From assembly GCA_021808055.1 (NCBI GenBank), contig JAKBCH010000029.1:1-25307 (forward strand): 25,307 nt of DNA, given 5' to 3'. The translations under genes were made by a program, and so were the position numbers. The DNA is from Pseudomonadota bacterium (GTDB lineage: Bacteria; Pseudomonadota; Alphaproteobacteria; Acetobacterales; Acetobacteraceae). The notes under the pieces are model-generated. The model was not told the DNA's origin and made no database searches. It saw only the letters and a program-made list of their open reading frames with translations. Positions 4,652 through 23,289 of this stretch are shown piece after piece (the first letter of the stretch is position 1; every line of letters begins with the position of its first letter).

Positions 4652-6034
4652 ATGGCAGCGGAATCTCCAGGAAGAGTCGAGCAGCATACCATTTATCAAA
4701 TTCCGTTGGACCAGCGCCACGGCACCTGGAGGGACCTGTTCACCATCTGGTTCGGCTCGAACATCATGATGCTGACAATTGTCACCGGCGCGTTGGCGAG
4801 TTCGGTTTTCAAGCTGGGTTTCATGAGCTCGTGCCTGTCCATCATCGTCGGCAATCTTGCGGGGGCTGTGTTCATGGCGCTGCATTCCGCGCAAGGGCCA
4901 CGGCTTGGCGTGCCGCAAATGGTGCAAACCCGGGGGCAGTTCGGCACCATCGGCGCGGTGCTGGTGGTGGCCATTGTCATCATTATGTATGTGGGGTTTC
5001 TGGCCTCTAACATCGTGCTTGGCGGGCAGTCTCTGCACACCATCGCGGGCGGCATTGATGAGCATCTGCTGATTGTGTTCATTGCGGTGGTCAGCGTGAT
5101 CGCCACTATCTTTGGCCACGACCTCATCCACGCCTATGCGCGTGTCCTCACCTGGACTTCAGGCCTGGCGTTGCTCGTTGCGTTTATCTGGATTGTCGTC
5201 ATTCATGGCCTGCCGGGCAATTTCATGGCGATGAACAGCTTCAGCGCCTCCGGGTTCTTCAGCATGGTCTCTGTCGGCGCGCTGTGGCAGATTGCCTATG
5301 CGCCTTACGTCTCAGACTATAGCCGCTATATGCCTTATGAAACGGGTGCCAAGCCTGCCTTCTGGGCTTCGTATTGGGGCTGTTCGCTCGGCTCTATCTT
5401 CCCGATGATTCTGGGCGCTCTGCTCGGCCTTGTTGCCGCCAATGGCGACCCAGTGGGCGGGCTCACCACCTTCACCGGTGCCGCGGCCATTCCCATTGTC
5501 GTTATTTTCTCTGTCGGCATTGCCGGTACCAATGCGATGAACCTTTATTGCGGCGTGCTTTCCACCATCACGCTCATCAACACCTTCGTGCCGTCTTGGA
5601 AAGCAGGGGCCGCGGCGCGCACCGTTACCGCCATTGCCATTACCATCATCGGCCTTGCCATTGCGCTGTTCGCGGCCGGCAACTTCCTCACCAACTACAC
5701 CAATTTCATCCTGCTGCTGCTTTATGTTTTGGTGCCCTGGACCGCGATCAACCTGGTGGATTTCTACCTCGTCCGCCATGGCGATTACGACGTTGCCGCC
5801 TTCTTTACGCCTGAAGGCGGTGTGTATGGCCGATTTAACAAATCGGCGATCTTCTGCTATATTCTGGGTATTCTGATTCAGTTGCCTTTTGTTTCCACCG
5901 ACCTTTACACCGGTCCGGTTGCCAAGGCGCTGAATGGTGTGGATCTCTCCTGGATCGTCGGCATACTGGTGATCAGCCCGATTTATTATTTCATGGCCCG
6001 CAAGGCGACACCTAATCTCGCCGCTGCGGAATAA
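4652..6034 (+). CDS. NCS1 family permease (cytosine/purine/hydantoin type)
   Basis: A 460-residue integral membrane protein with about 12 hydrophobic segments, matching the nucleobase:cation symporter-1 family (CodB/PucI/Mhp1 type). The N-terminus has the typical HGTWRDLFTIWFGSNIMMLTIVTGAL signature leading into TM1, the central YAPYVSDYSRYMP segment (residues ~215-230) is a strong family motif, and LVPWTAINLVDFYLVRHGDYD near residues 365-385 is another. The family imports cytosine, purines, allantoin, uracil or hydantoins with H+ or Na+. Which of these applies is not readable. The start ATG follows AAAGGAC. With the M20 amidohydrolase on the other side of a shared promoter region it probably supplies that enzyme's pathway with substrate. 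Confidence 0.93.
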   Translation: MAAESPGRVEQHTIYQIPLDQRHGTWRDLFTIWFGSNIMMLTIVTGALASSVFKLGFMSSCLSIIVGNLAGAVFMALHSAQGPRLGVPQMVQTRGQFGTIGAVLVVAIVIIMYVGFLASNIVLGGQSLHTIAGGIDEHLLIVFIAVVSVIATIFGHDLIHAYARVLTWTSGLALLVAFIWIVVIHGLPGNFMAMNSFSASGFFSMVSVGALWQIAYAPYVSDYSRYMPYETGAKPAFWASYWGCSLGSIFPMILGALLGLVAANGDPVGGLTTFTGAAAIPIVVIFSVGIAGTNAMNLYCGVLSTITLINTFVPSWKAGAAARTVTAIAITIIGLAIALFAAGNFLTNYTNFILLLLYVLVPWTAINLVDFYLVRHGDYDVAAFFTPEGGVYGRFNKSAIFCYILGILIQLPFVSTDLYTGPVAKALNGVDLSWIVGILVISPIYYFMARKATPNLAAAE

Positions 6035-6045
6035 ACAATGAATGT

Positions 6046-6077
6046 CCCGCTCAGTTGCCAGCATCAAACTGGGCGGG
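6046..6077. terminator. Hairpin between convergent permease and lipocalin genes
   Basis: CCCGCTCAGTT (6046-6056) pairs with AACTGGGCGGG (6067-6077), 11 bp with one possible G-U wobble and a 10-base loop. It lies just after the permease stop and includes the stop codon of the opposing lipocalin gene. There is no clear T run on either side, so it is a weak or non-canonical bidirectional terminator candidate. Confidence 0.4.
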
Positions 6078-6629
6078 ATACTCCAGCGGCCCTTGATAGC
6101 CCAGCGCCCTTACCCGCGCCGTTAGCTTGTTTACCTCGCTTGGCGGCGGGTTGGGATTGCGGGTGAGCATGGAGACAATGCTCATGTCCGGCGTGGCGAC
6201 GATAAACCAATGGTAGTTCGCGCCATGATCAAGAATCCAATACGTGTAGGGCAGGGTGAAAATGTGCCATACCTTATACCGTACGAGGATTTTGTTGTTT
6301 TGCCCGGGGTCCAACACAGCAACTGTGCCCTGGAAAGCGCGTTCCTTGCCTTCGGGCGTTCCCGTATGGCACGCATCACGCTGCACAAGCTGACCTTTTG
6401 AATTTGCCAGATACGATGTTGTGCCGGCCACGCAGCCATCTGTCAGCTTCGTTGGTTCACGGCCCACCTCATACCATCGTCCGGTATAGAGCCGCGCCAT
6501 ATCAACGCTTTTCACCGGTTCCGGCGCCATTTTCTGGGGCGGCTGCCCGGTGGCGCAGCCAGCCAATGGCAGGATCAACAGCGGGGCGAGCAAGCTTGTG
6601 GAGCGCATATTTTTGAGCATGTGCATCAT
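6051..6629 (-). CDS. Outer-membrane lipocalin lipoprotein (Blc-like)
   Basis: A 192-residue lipoprotein. The N-terminus has a hydrophobic signal with the lipobox LAGC, giving lipidated Cys at residue ~25. The lipocalin signature GRWYEVGR follows at residues ~50-57, then a single eight-stranded barrel (FQGTVAVLD, KVWHIFTLPYTYWILDHG, YHWFIVATP, MSIVSMLTRNP) and the C-terminal helix region PSEVNKLTARVRALGY. Bacterial Blc proteins bind lysophospholipids or fatty acids and act in envelope maintenance. Several in-frame ATG codons cluster at the start (residues 1, 2, 4, 8) and no strong ribosome site decides among them, so the true start may be up to 7 residues shorter. It is divergent from the DUF6065-like gene. 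Confidence 0.88.
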   Translation of the reverse strand: MMHMLKNMRSTSLLAPLLILPLAGCATGQPPQKMAPEPVKSVDMARLYTGRWYEVGREPTKLTDGCVAGTTSYLANSKGQLVQRDACHTGTPEGKERAFQGTVAVLDPGQNNKILVRYKVWHIFTLPYTYWILDHGANYHWFIVATPDMSIVSMLTRNPNPPPSEVNKLTARVRALGYQGPLEYPAQFDAGN

Positions 6630-6729: not shown

Positions 6730-7467
6730 ATGAGCATTGTCAAATATCGTCTGTATCAGCCGCGCCTGGCTCCCCGGCGCACGAAAATGGAAGTGCCCGG
6801 CTGGGGTGGCGAGAAACAGCCTCGGCAGGATGGCGCACACGAACAGGGCTGGCATTGCTTGCCTTTTGTTGAAAGCGCGCAATACGGCATTGAGATTTTC
6901 TACCCGTATGAGAACGAGTTGCGCGTCTCCCACCAGGATGGAAAATTCACCTTCGACGGCGATTTCGGGCCGCCGCCCAGCCCTGGCCTGCAATGGCCGC
7001 CTTTTCGTGCTTTTGGCGCGGGTTATTATACCTATCAGCTTTTGCTGGATTTGAAGGTGCCGGAGGGCGTTGCCATCCGCACTGAGCCGCACCCGCGCTA
7101 CTATCTCAGCGCCTCGAATGATGTGCCACTCGCGGTTCCGGCGCTGTTGCGCACATCCTGGTGGCCGATGGTCAATTTCGTGGTTTTCAAAGCCCCACCT
7201 GAAGGGATTACGCATGTTTTTCGGCCTGGCGAGCCGTTCATGCAAATCTGCATTCTTCCCGCCGAGCCTCAGTTCAGTTTGGAACCAATGGGCGAGGAAG
7301 AAGCGGCCGAGCGGGAAATGCAATCCAGACGCATCCACGCCAGCCGCGAAACATTGGGCCGTGACACAAGGTGGACCTCATCAACCAACACTGTGTTCGA
7401 TGGCACATATCGCCGTATCCTCGGTGCCGCCCGCGCCAGAGACCGGGCGGCGGAGGATGAAGGTTAG
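6730..7467 (+). CDS. DUF6065-like protein of unknown function
   Basis: A 245-residue soluble protein without signal peptide or membrane segment. Recognisable pieces are the N-terminal YRLYQPRLAPR, the WHCLPFVESAQYGIEIFYPYE block, FGAGYYTYQLLLDLKVPEGVAIRTEPHPRYY, and WWPMVNFVVFKAPPEGITHVFRPGEPFMQICILP. The pattern reminds me of the DUF6065 family, but that is recalled from memory and not checked. I chose the ATG at 6730, which has GGGA nine bases upstream; an in-frame ATG at 6721 is the alternative. No catalytic motif is evident. It is divergent from the lipocalin gene, and its stop overlaps the stop of the convergent secreted His-rich gene by 4 bases. Confidence 0.75.
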   Translation: MSIVKYRLYQPRLAPRRTKMEVPGWGGEKQPRQDGAHEQGWHCLPFVESAQYGIEIFYPYENELRVSHQDGKFTFDGDFGPPPSPGLQWPPFRAFGAGYYTYQLLLDLKVPEGVAIRTEPHPRYYLSASNDVPLAVPALLRTSWWPMVNFVVFKAPPEGITHVFRPGEPFMQICILPAEPQFSLEPMGEEEAAEREMQSRRIHASRETLGRDTRWTSSTNTVFDGTYRRILGAARARDRAAEDEG

Positions 7468-7886
7468 TTAATCTGTACGCCGATCCCCGGCAGCATAATG
7501 ACCGCACCGCTGTGGTGATGGTGGTGATAGTAAACGGGCGGCGGTGGTGGCGGCGGCGGATAATAATACGCTGGCGGCGGCGCGTAATATTCCGGGGGCG
7601 GGGGTGGATAATATGAATTGTGATGATGATGATGGTGGTGATGGTCGTTGCCACCCCAATCCACCTGCTCAGCCACGGGTGCATTTGTGGCTTGTGCCAT
7701 AATTTCTGCATTATGACTTTGCAAAGCCGCCGTCGCGTTGGGAATAGGTCGTAGAAGATCCGCATAAGACGATACGGCCATCGGCTCTGTGTTGATGGTC
7801 ACGCTCGATGCGGCCTGTGCAGCCGTGCTTCCCAATGTGGCCAGCCCAGCCAAGGCACCAAGCAGGCCAGCGGTTTTCCGTTCCAT
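7464..7886 (-). CDS. Secreted His/Pro/Tyr-rich low-complexity protein
   Basis: A 140-residue protein with a cleavable signal peptide (residues ~1-26, ending AAQAA). The N-terminal half after it is ordinary; the second half is extreme: eight consecutive His (residues ~82-89), then alternating Pro runs and Tyr pairs (PPPPPEYYAPPPAYYYP), a run of seven Pro, a second block of five His and a short hydrophobic C-terminal cap, AVIMLPGIGVQIN. The His clusters suggest binding of Ni, Cu or Zn in the periplasm, but this is inference. The design matches the protein at 21378-21767, with the word PPPEYYAPPP identical in both. The long histidine and proline codon runs keep frame, so this is a real ORF rather than a sequencing artefact. 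Confidence 0.75.
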   Translation of the reverse strand: MERKTAGLLGALAGLATLGSTAAQAASSVTINTEPMAVSSYADLLRPIPNATAALQSHNAEIMAQATNAPVAEQVDWGGNDHHHHHHHHNSYYPPPPPEYYAPPPAYYYPPPPPPPPVYYHHHHHSGAVIMLPGIGVQIN

Positions 7887-21227: not shown

Positions 21228-21377
21228 TCTTGCTGGTTTCGCAAGAGCTTTCTGCTTTATCCTTATGATTTTAATAAATTTAATGAACTTGCGTTGGAAT
21301 GCCATGTTTTGGCCGCAGGCACAGCATCGAATCGCCGCACCACGCACACCATATGTTAAACGGAAGGGGCGAGGTTG

Positions 21378-21767
21378 ATGCCTATGCGGGTCAGGCTATG
21401 GCTGATGGGTTGTGTGGTGGCGGCCGGTATGGCGGCGGCAGGTGTTGCCCCTGTTTTGGCCGATGGGGGTCATAACGGCCAGAGCGGCTGGAATGATGGC
21501 CATTGGAATGGCGACAGGGACGCTCATTCTTATGATGATTGGCAAGACCATGGCTGGATGGATGATGACCGCCGCTGGCACTGGTTTCCAGGTTGGGGGC
21601 CAGGGATTGCGGTTTATGCGGCACCGGTGCTCCCGCCTGAATATTACGCACCGCCACCGCCACCGCCACCGCCACCGCCCGTTTATTACGCACCGCCCCC
21701 GCCGGTTTATGTGGCGCCGCCACCTTCCATCATCATCACGCCGGGCGGCATCGGCATCGCGCCTTAA
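21378..21767 (+). CDS. Secreted Pro/Tyr-rich protein, paralogue of the His-rich protein at 7464-7886
   Basis: A 129-residue exported protein. Residues 1-~28 are a signal peptide (WLMGCVVAAGMAAAGVAPVLA), followed by an Asp/Trp/His/Gly-rich section (DGGHNGQSGWNDGHWNGD, HGWMDDDRRWHW), then WFPGWGPGIAVYAAPVL and a poly-Pro/Tyr stretch with PPEYYAPPPP, VYYAPPPP and VYVAPPP. It ends in the hydrophobic cap SIIITPGGIGIAP. The Pro/Tyr word and terminal cap match the 7464-7886 protein. ATG 21378 has GGAAGGGG eight bases upstream; ATG 21384 is an alternative. Function is unknown; a periplasmic or surface structural or metal-binding role is only a guess. Confidence 0.72.
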   Translation: MPMRVRLWLMGCVVAAGMAAAGVAPVLADGGHNGQSGWNDGHWNGDRDAHSYDDWQDHGWMDDDRRWHWFPGWGPGIAVYAAPVLPPEYYAPPPPPPPPPPVYYAPPPPVYVAPPPSIIITPGGIGIAP

Positions 21768-21777
21768 CGCCTAACAT

Positions 21778-22626
21778 TCAAGGCCATTTCACCTCTGGCG
21801 GCATGGACATCAAAATGGCCTCAGTATTGCCGCCGGTTTTCAGCCCGAATGTCGTCCCCCGGTCGTAGAGCAGATTGAATTCCACATACCGCCCCCGGCG
21901 GATGAGCTGTGCTTCGCGTTCTTCCGGCGTGAAGTTCTCATGCATGCGACGGCGGACGATCGGCGGGTAGGCGGCTAAAAACGCCTCACCCACATCCCGC
22001 GTGAAGGCGAAATCCGCTACTGCGTCGCCGCTATCCAGATAGTCGTAGAATATCCCGCCCGCGCCGCGCTTCTCGCCCCTATGCGGCAGGTAGAAATACT
22101 CATCGCACCACGCCTTGAATTTTGGGTAATAGGCGGGGTCGTGCTTGTCGCAGGCGGTTTTATAGGCGGCATGGAAAAACGCTGAATCCTGTTCCGCCGC
22201 CCCGGTGCCCGGCTGCAAGGGGGTCAAATCGCCGCCGCCACCAAACCAACCCTTCGCGGTCACGATCATGCGGGTGTTCATATGCACCGCCGGAATTTTT
22301 GGGCTGCGGGGATGGATGACGAGTGAAATGCCTGCCGCCCAAAATTTCGCTCCCGTCTCGGTGCCGGGAATCCGGCTCGCGAATTCGGTGGTGAATTCGC
22401 CCTCCACCACCGAAATATTCACCCCGGCCTTCTCGAAAATTTGCCCGCGCATCACGCTCATCTCGCCACCGCCACCGCCTGGCCTCTCCCATGCGGTGCG
22501 GGCAAACTGGCCATTTCCGCCTTCGCCCTCAATCGCCTCCAGCGCGGCGCAAACGCGGTCCCGCAGGGTTGCAAACCAGGCGGCGGCCTCGGGCTTTAGG
22601 CTTTCATGTGGGGGCAAATTGCTCAT
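21778..22626 (-). CDS. hemF: Oxygen-dependent coproporphyrinogen III oxidase
   Basis: A 282-residue HemF, which uses O2 to decarboxylate coproporphyrinogen III to protoporphyrinogen IX in haem synthesis. Clear family blocks: WERPGGGGGEMSVMRGQIFEKAGVN near residue 46, SLVIHPRSPKIPAVHMNTR near residue 100, WFGGGGDLTP, HRGEKRGAGGIFYDYLD near residue 180 and the C-terminal GRYVEFNLLYDRGTTFGLKTGGNTEAILMSMPP. The length is normal. It is divergent from the petABC genes across 105 bp, coupling haem supply with cytochrome genes in position. Confidence 0.97.
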   Translation of the reverse strand: MSNLPPHESLKPEAAAWFATLRDRVCAALEAIEGEGGNGQFARTAWERPGGGGGEMSVMRGQIFEKAGVNISVVEGEFTTEFASRIPGTETGAKFWAAGISLVIHPRSPKIPAVHMNTRMIVTAKGWFGGGGDLTPLQPGTGAAEQDSAFFHAAYKTACDKHDPAYYPKFKAWCDEYFYLPHRGEKRGAGGIFYDYLDSGDAVADFAFTRDVGEAFLAAYPPIVRRRMHENFTPEEREAQLIRRGRYVEFNLLYDRGTTFGLKTGGNTEAILMSMPPEVKWP

Positions 22627-22731: not shown

Positions 22732-23289
22732 ATGGCTGAATCAACAGCGAAGCCAGGAGCCGTGCCAGCAGAGGCCGATCGGCGCGATTTTTTACGAATC
22801 CTCGCCATGGCCGGCGGTGCCGTTGGTGTGGCCTCGGTGATTTGGCCATTGGTGGATGCGCTAAACCCCGGTGATGCCGCAGAAGCGCATGCGCAGCCGA
22901 TCATCACCGTATCGGATATTCCCGAAAACAGCGCCAAAAGGGTCTATTGGGCGGATACGCCGATTCTGATCCGGCGGTTGACGGATAAGCAGATTGCGGA
23001 TGCCTCGGTGGTGGCGATGACGGATTTGCCCGACCCGGCGGAAATTTCCACCCGCGTTGCCCCCGGCAACGGGCATTTCGTGGTGGTGGTGGGGCTGAAC
23101 ACCGGCACGCCCTGCGAGTTGGAGGGCAACAGCCCCTCTGACCCGCATGGTAATTTCGAGGGCTGGGTGTGCCCGTGCGATGGCAGCCAATACGACGTTC
23201 TGGGGCGGGTGCGCTCCGGCCCGGCCAGACGCAACCTCGTGATTCCTCGTTTTACGTTCATCAATAAAGATCAAATTCAGCTTGGCTAA
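22732..23289 (+). CDS. petA: Rieske subunit homologue of cytochrome bc1 lacking most [2Fe-2S] ligands
   Basis: A 185-residue protein with the full architecture of a bc1 Rieske subunit: a twin-arginine signal anchor (RRDFLRILAMAGG, residues 17-29, then a membrane span), hinge region, and soluble domain ending GRVRSGPARRNLVIPRF. The cluster-binding boxes are degenerate. Box I, normally CTHLGC, reads NTGTPC (123-128), so ligands Cys123 and His125 are Asn and Gly. Box II, normally CPCHGS, reads CPCDGS (147-152), so ligand His150 is Asp. Only Cys147 remains of four ligands, though the disulphide pair C128/C149 is kept. Frame and flanking sequence are intact, so a sequencing error is unlikely. It probably cannot bind a normal Rieske cluster. 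It begins the petABC operon with GGGAG before the start. Confidence 0.93.
   Translation: MAESTAKPGAVPAEADRRDFLRILAMAGGAVGVASVIWPLVDALNPGDAAEAHAQPIITVSDIPENSAKRVYWADTPILIRRLTDKQIADASVVAMTDLPDPAEISTRVAPGNGHFVVVVGLNTGTPCELEGNSPSDPHGNFEGWVCPCDGSQYDVLGRVRSGPARRNLVIPRFTFINKDQIQLG

Follow-up and report, generated by a model that had tools for sequence, protein, structure and literature searches.

Retention under purifying selection of a Rieske protein with one remaining cluster ligand in the bc1 operon of Acidocella and its relatives

Introduction

Why should a bc1 operon keep the gene of a Rieske protein (ISP) in which three of the four residues that hold the cluster have been replaced? The locus that raises this question is petABC in a stretch of 25,307 nucleotides, referred to below as the window. 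An earlier note, made from the letters of the window alone, had read petA as encoding an exported, clusterless Rieske protein and stated that no description of such a protein was known. That last statement does not stand, as the central fact, a clusterless ISP in Acidocella, has been in print since 2023 (Degli Esposti et al. 2023, Microbiol Spectr 11:e00575-23, PMC10715153). The part of that paper considered here describes Acidocella ISPs without three or four of the ligands, together with the loss of bH ligands from cytochrome b and an intact cytochrome c1. The window agrees with this deranged bc1 in the loss of three to four ISP ligands, the retained disulphide Cys pair, the loss of bH ligands, the intact c1 and the retention of petA, and a cytochrome oxidase is present in most of the published cases, as it is in the clade genomes analysed here; the window sequence itself comes from an Acidocella-type lineage. 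Searches of the open-access literature turned up no further report of ISP ligand loss. Relative to the part of the 2023 paper considered here, the new elements are perhaps the selection analysis, the invariance of the replaced ligands, the single-copy check, the retention of heme bL alongside the loss of quinone-site residues, and the case of a sister-lineage genome, G228.

Results

The window PetA is predicted to keep the Rieske fold with one cluster ligand

The petA reading frame is open from its ATG start and encodes 185 residues, whose numbering is used throughout (Table 1). Ten bases separate petA from petB, and the petC ATG overlaps the petB stop codon. Upstream lies the divergent hemF, which adjoins petA in most of the clade loci that extend that far. 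The protein scored 117.7 bits against TIGR01416 (cut-off 97.4) and 42.6 bits against the Tat/transmembrane model PF10399 (cut-off 24), bearing out the open frame and Tat anchor of the earlier note; a search of the window PetA with PF00355 gave no match. Elsewhere in the window, ORFs of 140 and 130 aa (7464-7886, minus strand, and 21375-21767, plus strand) have a hydrophobic N-terminus and Pro/Tyr-rich tracts, and by eye they resemble related small exported proteins.

Table 1. Positions of the petABC operon, its divergent neighbour and the altered ligand boxes in the window
Feature	Position	Strand	Evidence
hemF, oxygen-dependent coproporphyrinogen oxidase, divergent neighbour and yardstick gene	21778..22626	-	profile match
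petA, Tat-anchored Rieske-fold protein, one of four cluster ligands left	22732..23289	+	ORF, TIGR01416, alignment, predicted model
Box I, residues 123-128, NTGTPC (canonical CTHLGC)	23098..23115	+	alignment to solved bc1 ISPs
Box II, residues 147-152, CPCDGS (canonical CPCHGS)	23170..23187	+	alignment to solved bc1 ISPs
petB, cytochrome b, 367 aa	23300..24403	+	profile match, alignment, predicted fold
petC, cytochrome c1, 235 aa	24400..25107	+	PF02167, 196.7 bits

Alignment to solved bc1 ISPs reproduced the reading of the earlier note, namely C123N, H125G and H150D with C147, C128 and C149 retained. In box I, N123 and G125 occupy the positions of the old Cys and His ligands and the disulphide residue C128 is kept; in box II, D150 takes the place of the old His ligand and both the ligand C147 and the disulphide residue C149 are kept. 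The window PetA therefore lacks the set of two Cys and two His that holds the cluster of a bc1 Rieske protein, and C147 alone remains. Compared with canonical bc1 Rieske ISPs (TIGR01416; PDB 2fyn, 2yiu and 1rie), the Tat/transmembrane anchor, the predicted fold, the disulphide Cys pair and the operon position are shared, whereas three of the four ligands are replaced (by N, G or A, and D). The predicted model has a mean pLDDT of 78.9, with ten-residue block means of at least 88 from residue 61 on, and its head superposes on 1rie with a TM-score of 0.95 (target length) and 1.4 Å over 134 columns, indicating that the Rieske fold is kept. A Rieske-like domain without [2Fe-2S] is also found in NirD, which has the same fold; unlike the window PetA, NirD is a soluble cytoplasmic subunit of another enzyme and has no bc1 context.

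Ligand loss is a trait of Acidocella and its relatives

A protein search with PetA returned 152 relatives, and residue counts refer to the 120 that were listed. Among these 120, which were collected by shared exact words so that conserved stretches are favoured, N123, T124, C128, C149, D150, G151 and S152 are invariant, and R18 of the Tat/transmembrane anchor is likewise unchanged in all. Position 125 is Gly in 101 and Ala in 19, and position 147 is Cys in 113, Ser in six and Ala in one.

The contigs were also scanned for petA loci. Among the best 80 of the 218 loci found, 35 (L001-L034 and L036) are clusterless and the other 45 carry CTHLGC and CPCHGS. The boxes of the window and the 35 loci follow the forms NT[G/A]xxC and [C/S]xCDGS, and the loci include those of Acidocella aminolytica, A. 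facilis, A. aquatica and A. aromatica. In the petB tree the 36 clusterless loci form one side of a branch with a support of 100, and the window is nested among named Acidocella in both the petB and petA trees. The occurrence of the same boxes in the window and in 35 loci that form one side of the petB tree argues against both chance and sequencing error. The petA of L036 is cut at a contig edge; this locus is included in the box counts and dN/dS statistics, and the petA conserved-residue counts and the hemF-yardstick comparison were made without it. Two database titles are at odds with genome placement: L035 (JAIMBF010000092.1) is titled Terriglobia, yet G035 was placed in the family of A. aminolytica, and L009 (JAMFSE010000149.1) is titled Rhodovastum atsumiense, yet G009 was placed in the genus of A. 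aminolytica. Both are perhaps mislabelled bins.

Because one of the contig-scan patterns contained PCDGS and so favoured forms of this kind, the searches were repeated without it, once with the TIGR01416 profile and once with a protein query. The profile, run on 200 genomes of the family, found an ISP over the cut-off in 175. The protein query, run on 397 genomes, matched 349; the 14 closest matches were of the clusterless Acidocella type, with GQNTGTPC as the box I stretch of A. aminolytica (G006), and the next 16 were canonical. From the TIGR01416 survey, 26 weak-scoring genomes were chosen by eye, a choice that left out the similarly scoring G170, G206 and G224. An ISP exceeds the cut-off in 25 of the 26. 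Of these 25 ISPs, 24 retain all four ligand residues, that of G228 with its changed boxes included, and the other, that of G164, has lost both His and retains both Cys; in the remaining genome, G212, the only Rieske match is distant and falls short of the cut-off. Where matches were inspected, these searches agree with the contig scan. We conclude that ligand loss is a lineage trait of Acidocella and its relatives.

petA is under purifying selection, with relaxed constraint

The earlier note had proposed checking whether the ligand loss is conserved in homologues at a dN/dS below 1, and both proved to be the case. Between the window and L001, pairwise dN/dS by the Nei-Gojobori method was 0.10 for petA, 0.16 for petB, 0.10 for petC and 0.10 for hemF; medians were 0.29, 0.45 and 0.28 for petA, petB and petC over 245 pairs and, over 228 pairs, 0.15 for hemF. 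In many pairs the synonymous sites approach saturation. Thus petA is under purifying selection, and all three operon genes have dN/dS below 1. No internal stop was found in the top ISP and cytochrome b match of any of 36 genomes.

On an ISP tree of 121 tips and 16.9 substitutions per site, columns underwent a mean of 13.6 changes. By comparison, 32 of the 170 columns are without any change, N123 and D150 among them, and the codons at these two positions vary synonymously (AAC/AAT and GAT/GAC, respectively). C147 changes six times on this tree, which lends no support to a Cys-based site at the old cluster position. The former cluster loops (residues 120-130 and 143-156) average 6.4 changes per column versus 14.0 in the rest of the head; equally quiet were 31 of 20,000 sets of columns drawn at random and, for contiguous windows taken in pairs, 127 of 5,778. 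The majority-residue fraction in the loops versus the rest of the head is 0.89 versus 0.68 in canonical ISPs and 0.84 versus 0.74 in the clade, a smaller contrast, suggesting that constraint on the tip has eased without disappearing.

With hemF as a yardstick, divergence of petA and petB was compared between clade pairs and canonical pairs, the latter being few at short hemF distance. At hemF differences below 0.15, petA and petB differ by 0.21 and 0.27 in 31 clade pairs versus 0.04 and 0.03 in seven canonical pairs, so that the clade exceeds the canonical pairs about fivefold in petA and eight- to ninefold in petB. The values at 0.15-0.25 are 0.39 and 0.51 (384 clade pairs) versus 0.08 and 0.07 (only three canonical pairs), and those at 0.25-0.35 are 0.42 and 0.56 (75 clade pairs) versus 0.38 and 0.35 (27 canonical pairs), where the clade has little excess in petA and a clear one in petB. 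Constraint on petA and petB is therefore relaxed in the clade.

Cytochrome b has lost heme bH ligands and quinone-site residues, and cytochrome c1 keeps its heme motifs

The earlier note had overlooked a further loss in the adjacent cytochrome b, which is missing a heme bH ligand and residues of the quinone sites. The window PetB keeps the bL ligands H86 and H186, has an incomplete bH pair (H100 and A200) and reads YPWY in place of PEWY. Across 36 cytochrome b rows, both bL ligands are kept in 35 (L011 lacks one) and both bH ligands in none, with the window and several others retaining one, and the Glu of the Qo motif PEWY is replaced by Pro in all 36. Many cytochrome b residues that are near-invariant in canonical rows (at least 97% conserved in up to 39 rows) are lost in the clade; W140, M143, K225 and D226 are absent from every clade row. 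Positions 225 and 226, which we take to be the Lys-Asp pair of the Qi site, are Q, H or D and Y, H, T or A, respectively, in the 36 rows. The predicted fold is canonical nonetheless, with a mean pLDDT of 87.2 and a TM-score of 0.88 to 8bel_C of plant complex III.

Cytochrome c1 of the window retains its heme motif, CASCH, and its Met region (AFPGGQVTMPAVL). The CxxCH and Met motifs are kept in all 35 loci with petC, L016 being the locus without it. Of 38 genomes from the genus, mostly MAGs, 35 have c1. In six genomes (G013, G024, G026, G030, G031 and G033) the PF02167 match is split at about 52-57/89-92, which points to a shared mid-protein shortening of cytochrome c1 in one subgroup.

The altered bc1 is the only one detected in the clade genomes, and its retention shows no clean correlation with Complex I or the oxidase

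Each of the 35 clade genomes has one TIGR01416-type ISP (34 over the cut-off) and one cytochrome b; the ISP of G036 is a contig-edge fragment. A search of 36 genomes, mostly drafts, with TIGR01416 and PF00033 found no second intact bc1. Weak extra TIGR01416 matches of 20-23 bits in some clade genomes are mostly ORFs of more than 400 aa. An NrfD-type protein, used as a proxy for alternative complex III, exceeded the cut-off in three of the 35 clade genomes, and alternative complex III was therefore rejected as a general bypass.

The aa3 oxidase subunit CtaD was found over the cut-off in 26 of the 35 clade genomes, and several of the remaining nine contain fragments of it. The A. aminolytica oxidase operon contains ctaC, ctaD, ctaB, ctaE and a surf1-like gene, named by eye from translations. 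In the same species, an ORF on L128 (4356-5375; genome G006, C91) is a second ctaC-like gene with a broken CuA motif, GHSSSICG, next to an intact ctaC-like ORF (5485-6438) with GQCNQICG; it appears to encode another respiratory subunit retained with an incomplete set of metal ligands.

NuoD-type matches at E values of 1e-80 or better occur in 30 of the 35 clade genomes, with one more as a fragment. G134, a genome of the same family given as 2.7 Mb and represented by a contig of 2.74 Mb, has CtaD and NuoD, and ISP and c1 searches of it gave no match, indicating that bc1 is not a strict requirement of either enzyme there. Strong NuoD-type matches are also present in other genomes in which c1 gave no match, and four draft MAGs (G002, G011, G025 and G031) keep petABC with no strong NuoD match. 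In sum, retention of bc1 showed no clean correlation with the presence of Complex I or of the oxidase.

Sister lineages suggest that cytochrome b changed first

In the petB tree, G228, G130 and G186 group together (support 100) as sister to the Acidocella clade (99), in a quick tree with a warning that long branches meet at this point. The petA tree places the ISP of G228 as sister to those of Acidocella (99/94). The G228 ISP (L100/L125) keeps all four ligands within changed boxes, CPHRGC and CPCHGA, and its cytochrome b has E and G in place of the two bH ligands and reads PPWY, without the Qo Glu. This combination of altered cytochrome b and intact ISP ligands makes it most likely that cytochrome b changed before the ISP in the lineage. 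The part of the 2023 paper considered here states that in acidophilic taxa the alterations of ISP and cytochrome b are always associated (PMC10715153); G228, a single genome, looks like a counter-example.

The TIGR01416 genome survey found no ISP match in G130 and G186, where petBC is present and hemF adjoins petB. These two operons share with the window an altered Qo motif (xPWY), the loss of bH ligands and the retention of bL ligands, and differ from it in that petA is missing, indicating that the ISP is dispensable in the sister lineage. They are perhaps the Acidiphilium case of the 2023 paper, as described in the part considered here (PMC10715153). The c1 of G186 (L118/L124) is shortened, apparently without the Met-ligand region. 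G164 (L103/L126), on a long branch of uncertain placement, has an ISP with both Cys kept and both His gone (CGPDGC, CPCTGS) and a cytochrome b with PQWY and Asn at one bH ligand position.

Discussion

We propose that PetA is probably a structural subunit in a bc1-type complex so remodelled that it has ceased to oxidise quinol, as the residues that have disappeared suggest. Clade-wide conservation, dN/dS below 1, a single copy in 35 genomes and the predicted fold all fit a maintained clusterless Rieske protein with a structural role, as the earlier note had ventured. The kept Tat anchor suggests that PetA is exported, and it would cross the membrane folded, its conserved tip then docking onto cytochrome b or c1 in a complex with heme bL and heme c1. 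Such a complex may be retained as a membrane anchor that keeps cytochrome c1 next to the aa3 oxidase, perhaps within a supercomplex, and non-quinol donors may pass electrons through c1. This role beside aa3 is possible from the co-occurrence of the two, with nine of 35 clade genomes lacking a CtaD match over the cut-off. Also weighing against the structural reading are the relaxed constraint, the absence of petA beside petBC in G130 and G186, the bL ligand missing from L011, and G134, in which the oxidase and Complex I occur with no ISP or c1 match. As read from the trees, cytochrome b would have changed first, the ISP ligands would have gone in the Acidocella stem, and petA would have been lost in the two sister-lineage genomes. 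In yeast, heme bL is inserted into cytochrome b before bH (in the parts considered of PMC9502982 and PMC10132202), which fits retention of bL for folding. A more specific form of this proposal is that the operon encodes a re-purposed "bL-c1 complex" and not a relic, with the N123/D150 tip as a docking device that fixes the head, heme bL as a structural element and c1 as a relay from a non-quinol donor to aa3; we regard this form as unlikely.

Several other explanations bear on the same observations. Degli Esposti et al. (2023) proposed that the complex is retained to stabilise Complex I, and the strong NuoD-type matches in most clade genomes are in line with this published proposal (PMC10715153, in the part considered here). 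We nevertheless think it doubtful, given that G134 and other genomes have NuoD with no c1 match and that four genomes, all draft MAGs, keep petABC with no strong NuoD match. Slow decay, in which function was lost in an ancestor and the genes persist as expressed relics under weak selection, for instance against misfolded harmful products, would account for the raised substitution rates, above all in petB, for the missing petA and the apparently Met-less c1 in the sister lineage, and for the repeated loss of C147. Set against it are the open frames in 36 genomes, an omega of about 0.1-0.2 among near relatives, the unchanged ISP columns that include both replaced ligands, and the presence of c1 in most genomes of the genus, and on balance decay seems improbable to us.

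The invariance of N123, T124, D150, G151 and S152 among the 120 listed relatives goes beyond what a bare scaffold would need, and might reflect another cofactor or metal bound at the old cluster site through N123, C147 and D150, leaving the ISP redox active or sensing. This is very unlikely: C147 is Ser or Ala in seven of the 120 relatives, Asn and Asp alone make a weak site, and no window position has His in at least 90 of the 120. The earlier note's idea that PetA binds something else through His139 fails on the same comparison, since this residue is Arg in 118 of them. Least probable of all is that the quinol:cytochrome c step falls to another, intact bc1 or to an alternative complex III and that the window copy is a regulatory paralogue. 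The aa3 oxidase does imply that cytochrome c must be reduced somehow; however, each clade genome, mostly in draft form, has a single ISP and a single cytochrome b, and NrfD-type proteins are rare.

This lineage is a natural experiment that bears on which components of complex III are needed for anything besides quinol oxidation. It has lost its cluster ligands, its bH site and residues of the quinone sites, and under selection it retains the fold, the bL ligands, c1 and the empty tip. If confirmed, G228 gives the order of loss, with cytochrome b first, and corrects a statement in print (PMC10715153, in the part considered here). An explanation of this pattern would test whether assembly or scaffolding is a reason for retaining respiratory complexes, and would bear on the route by which electrons reach cytochrome c in these acidophiles.
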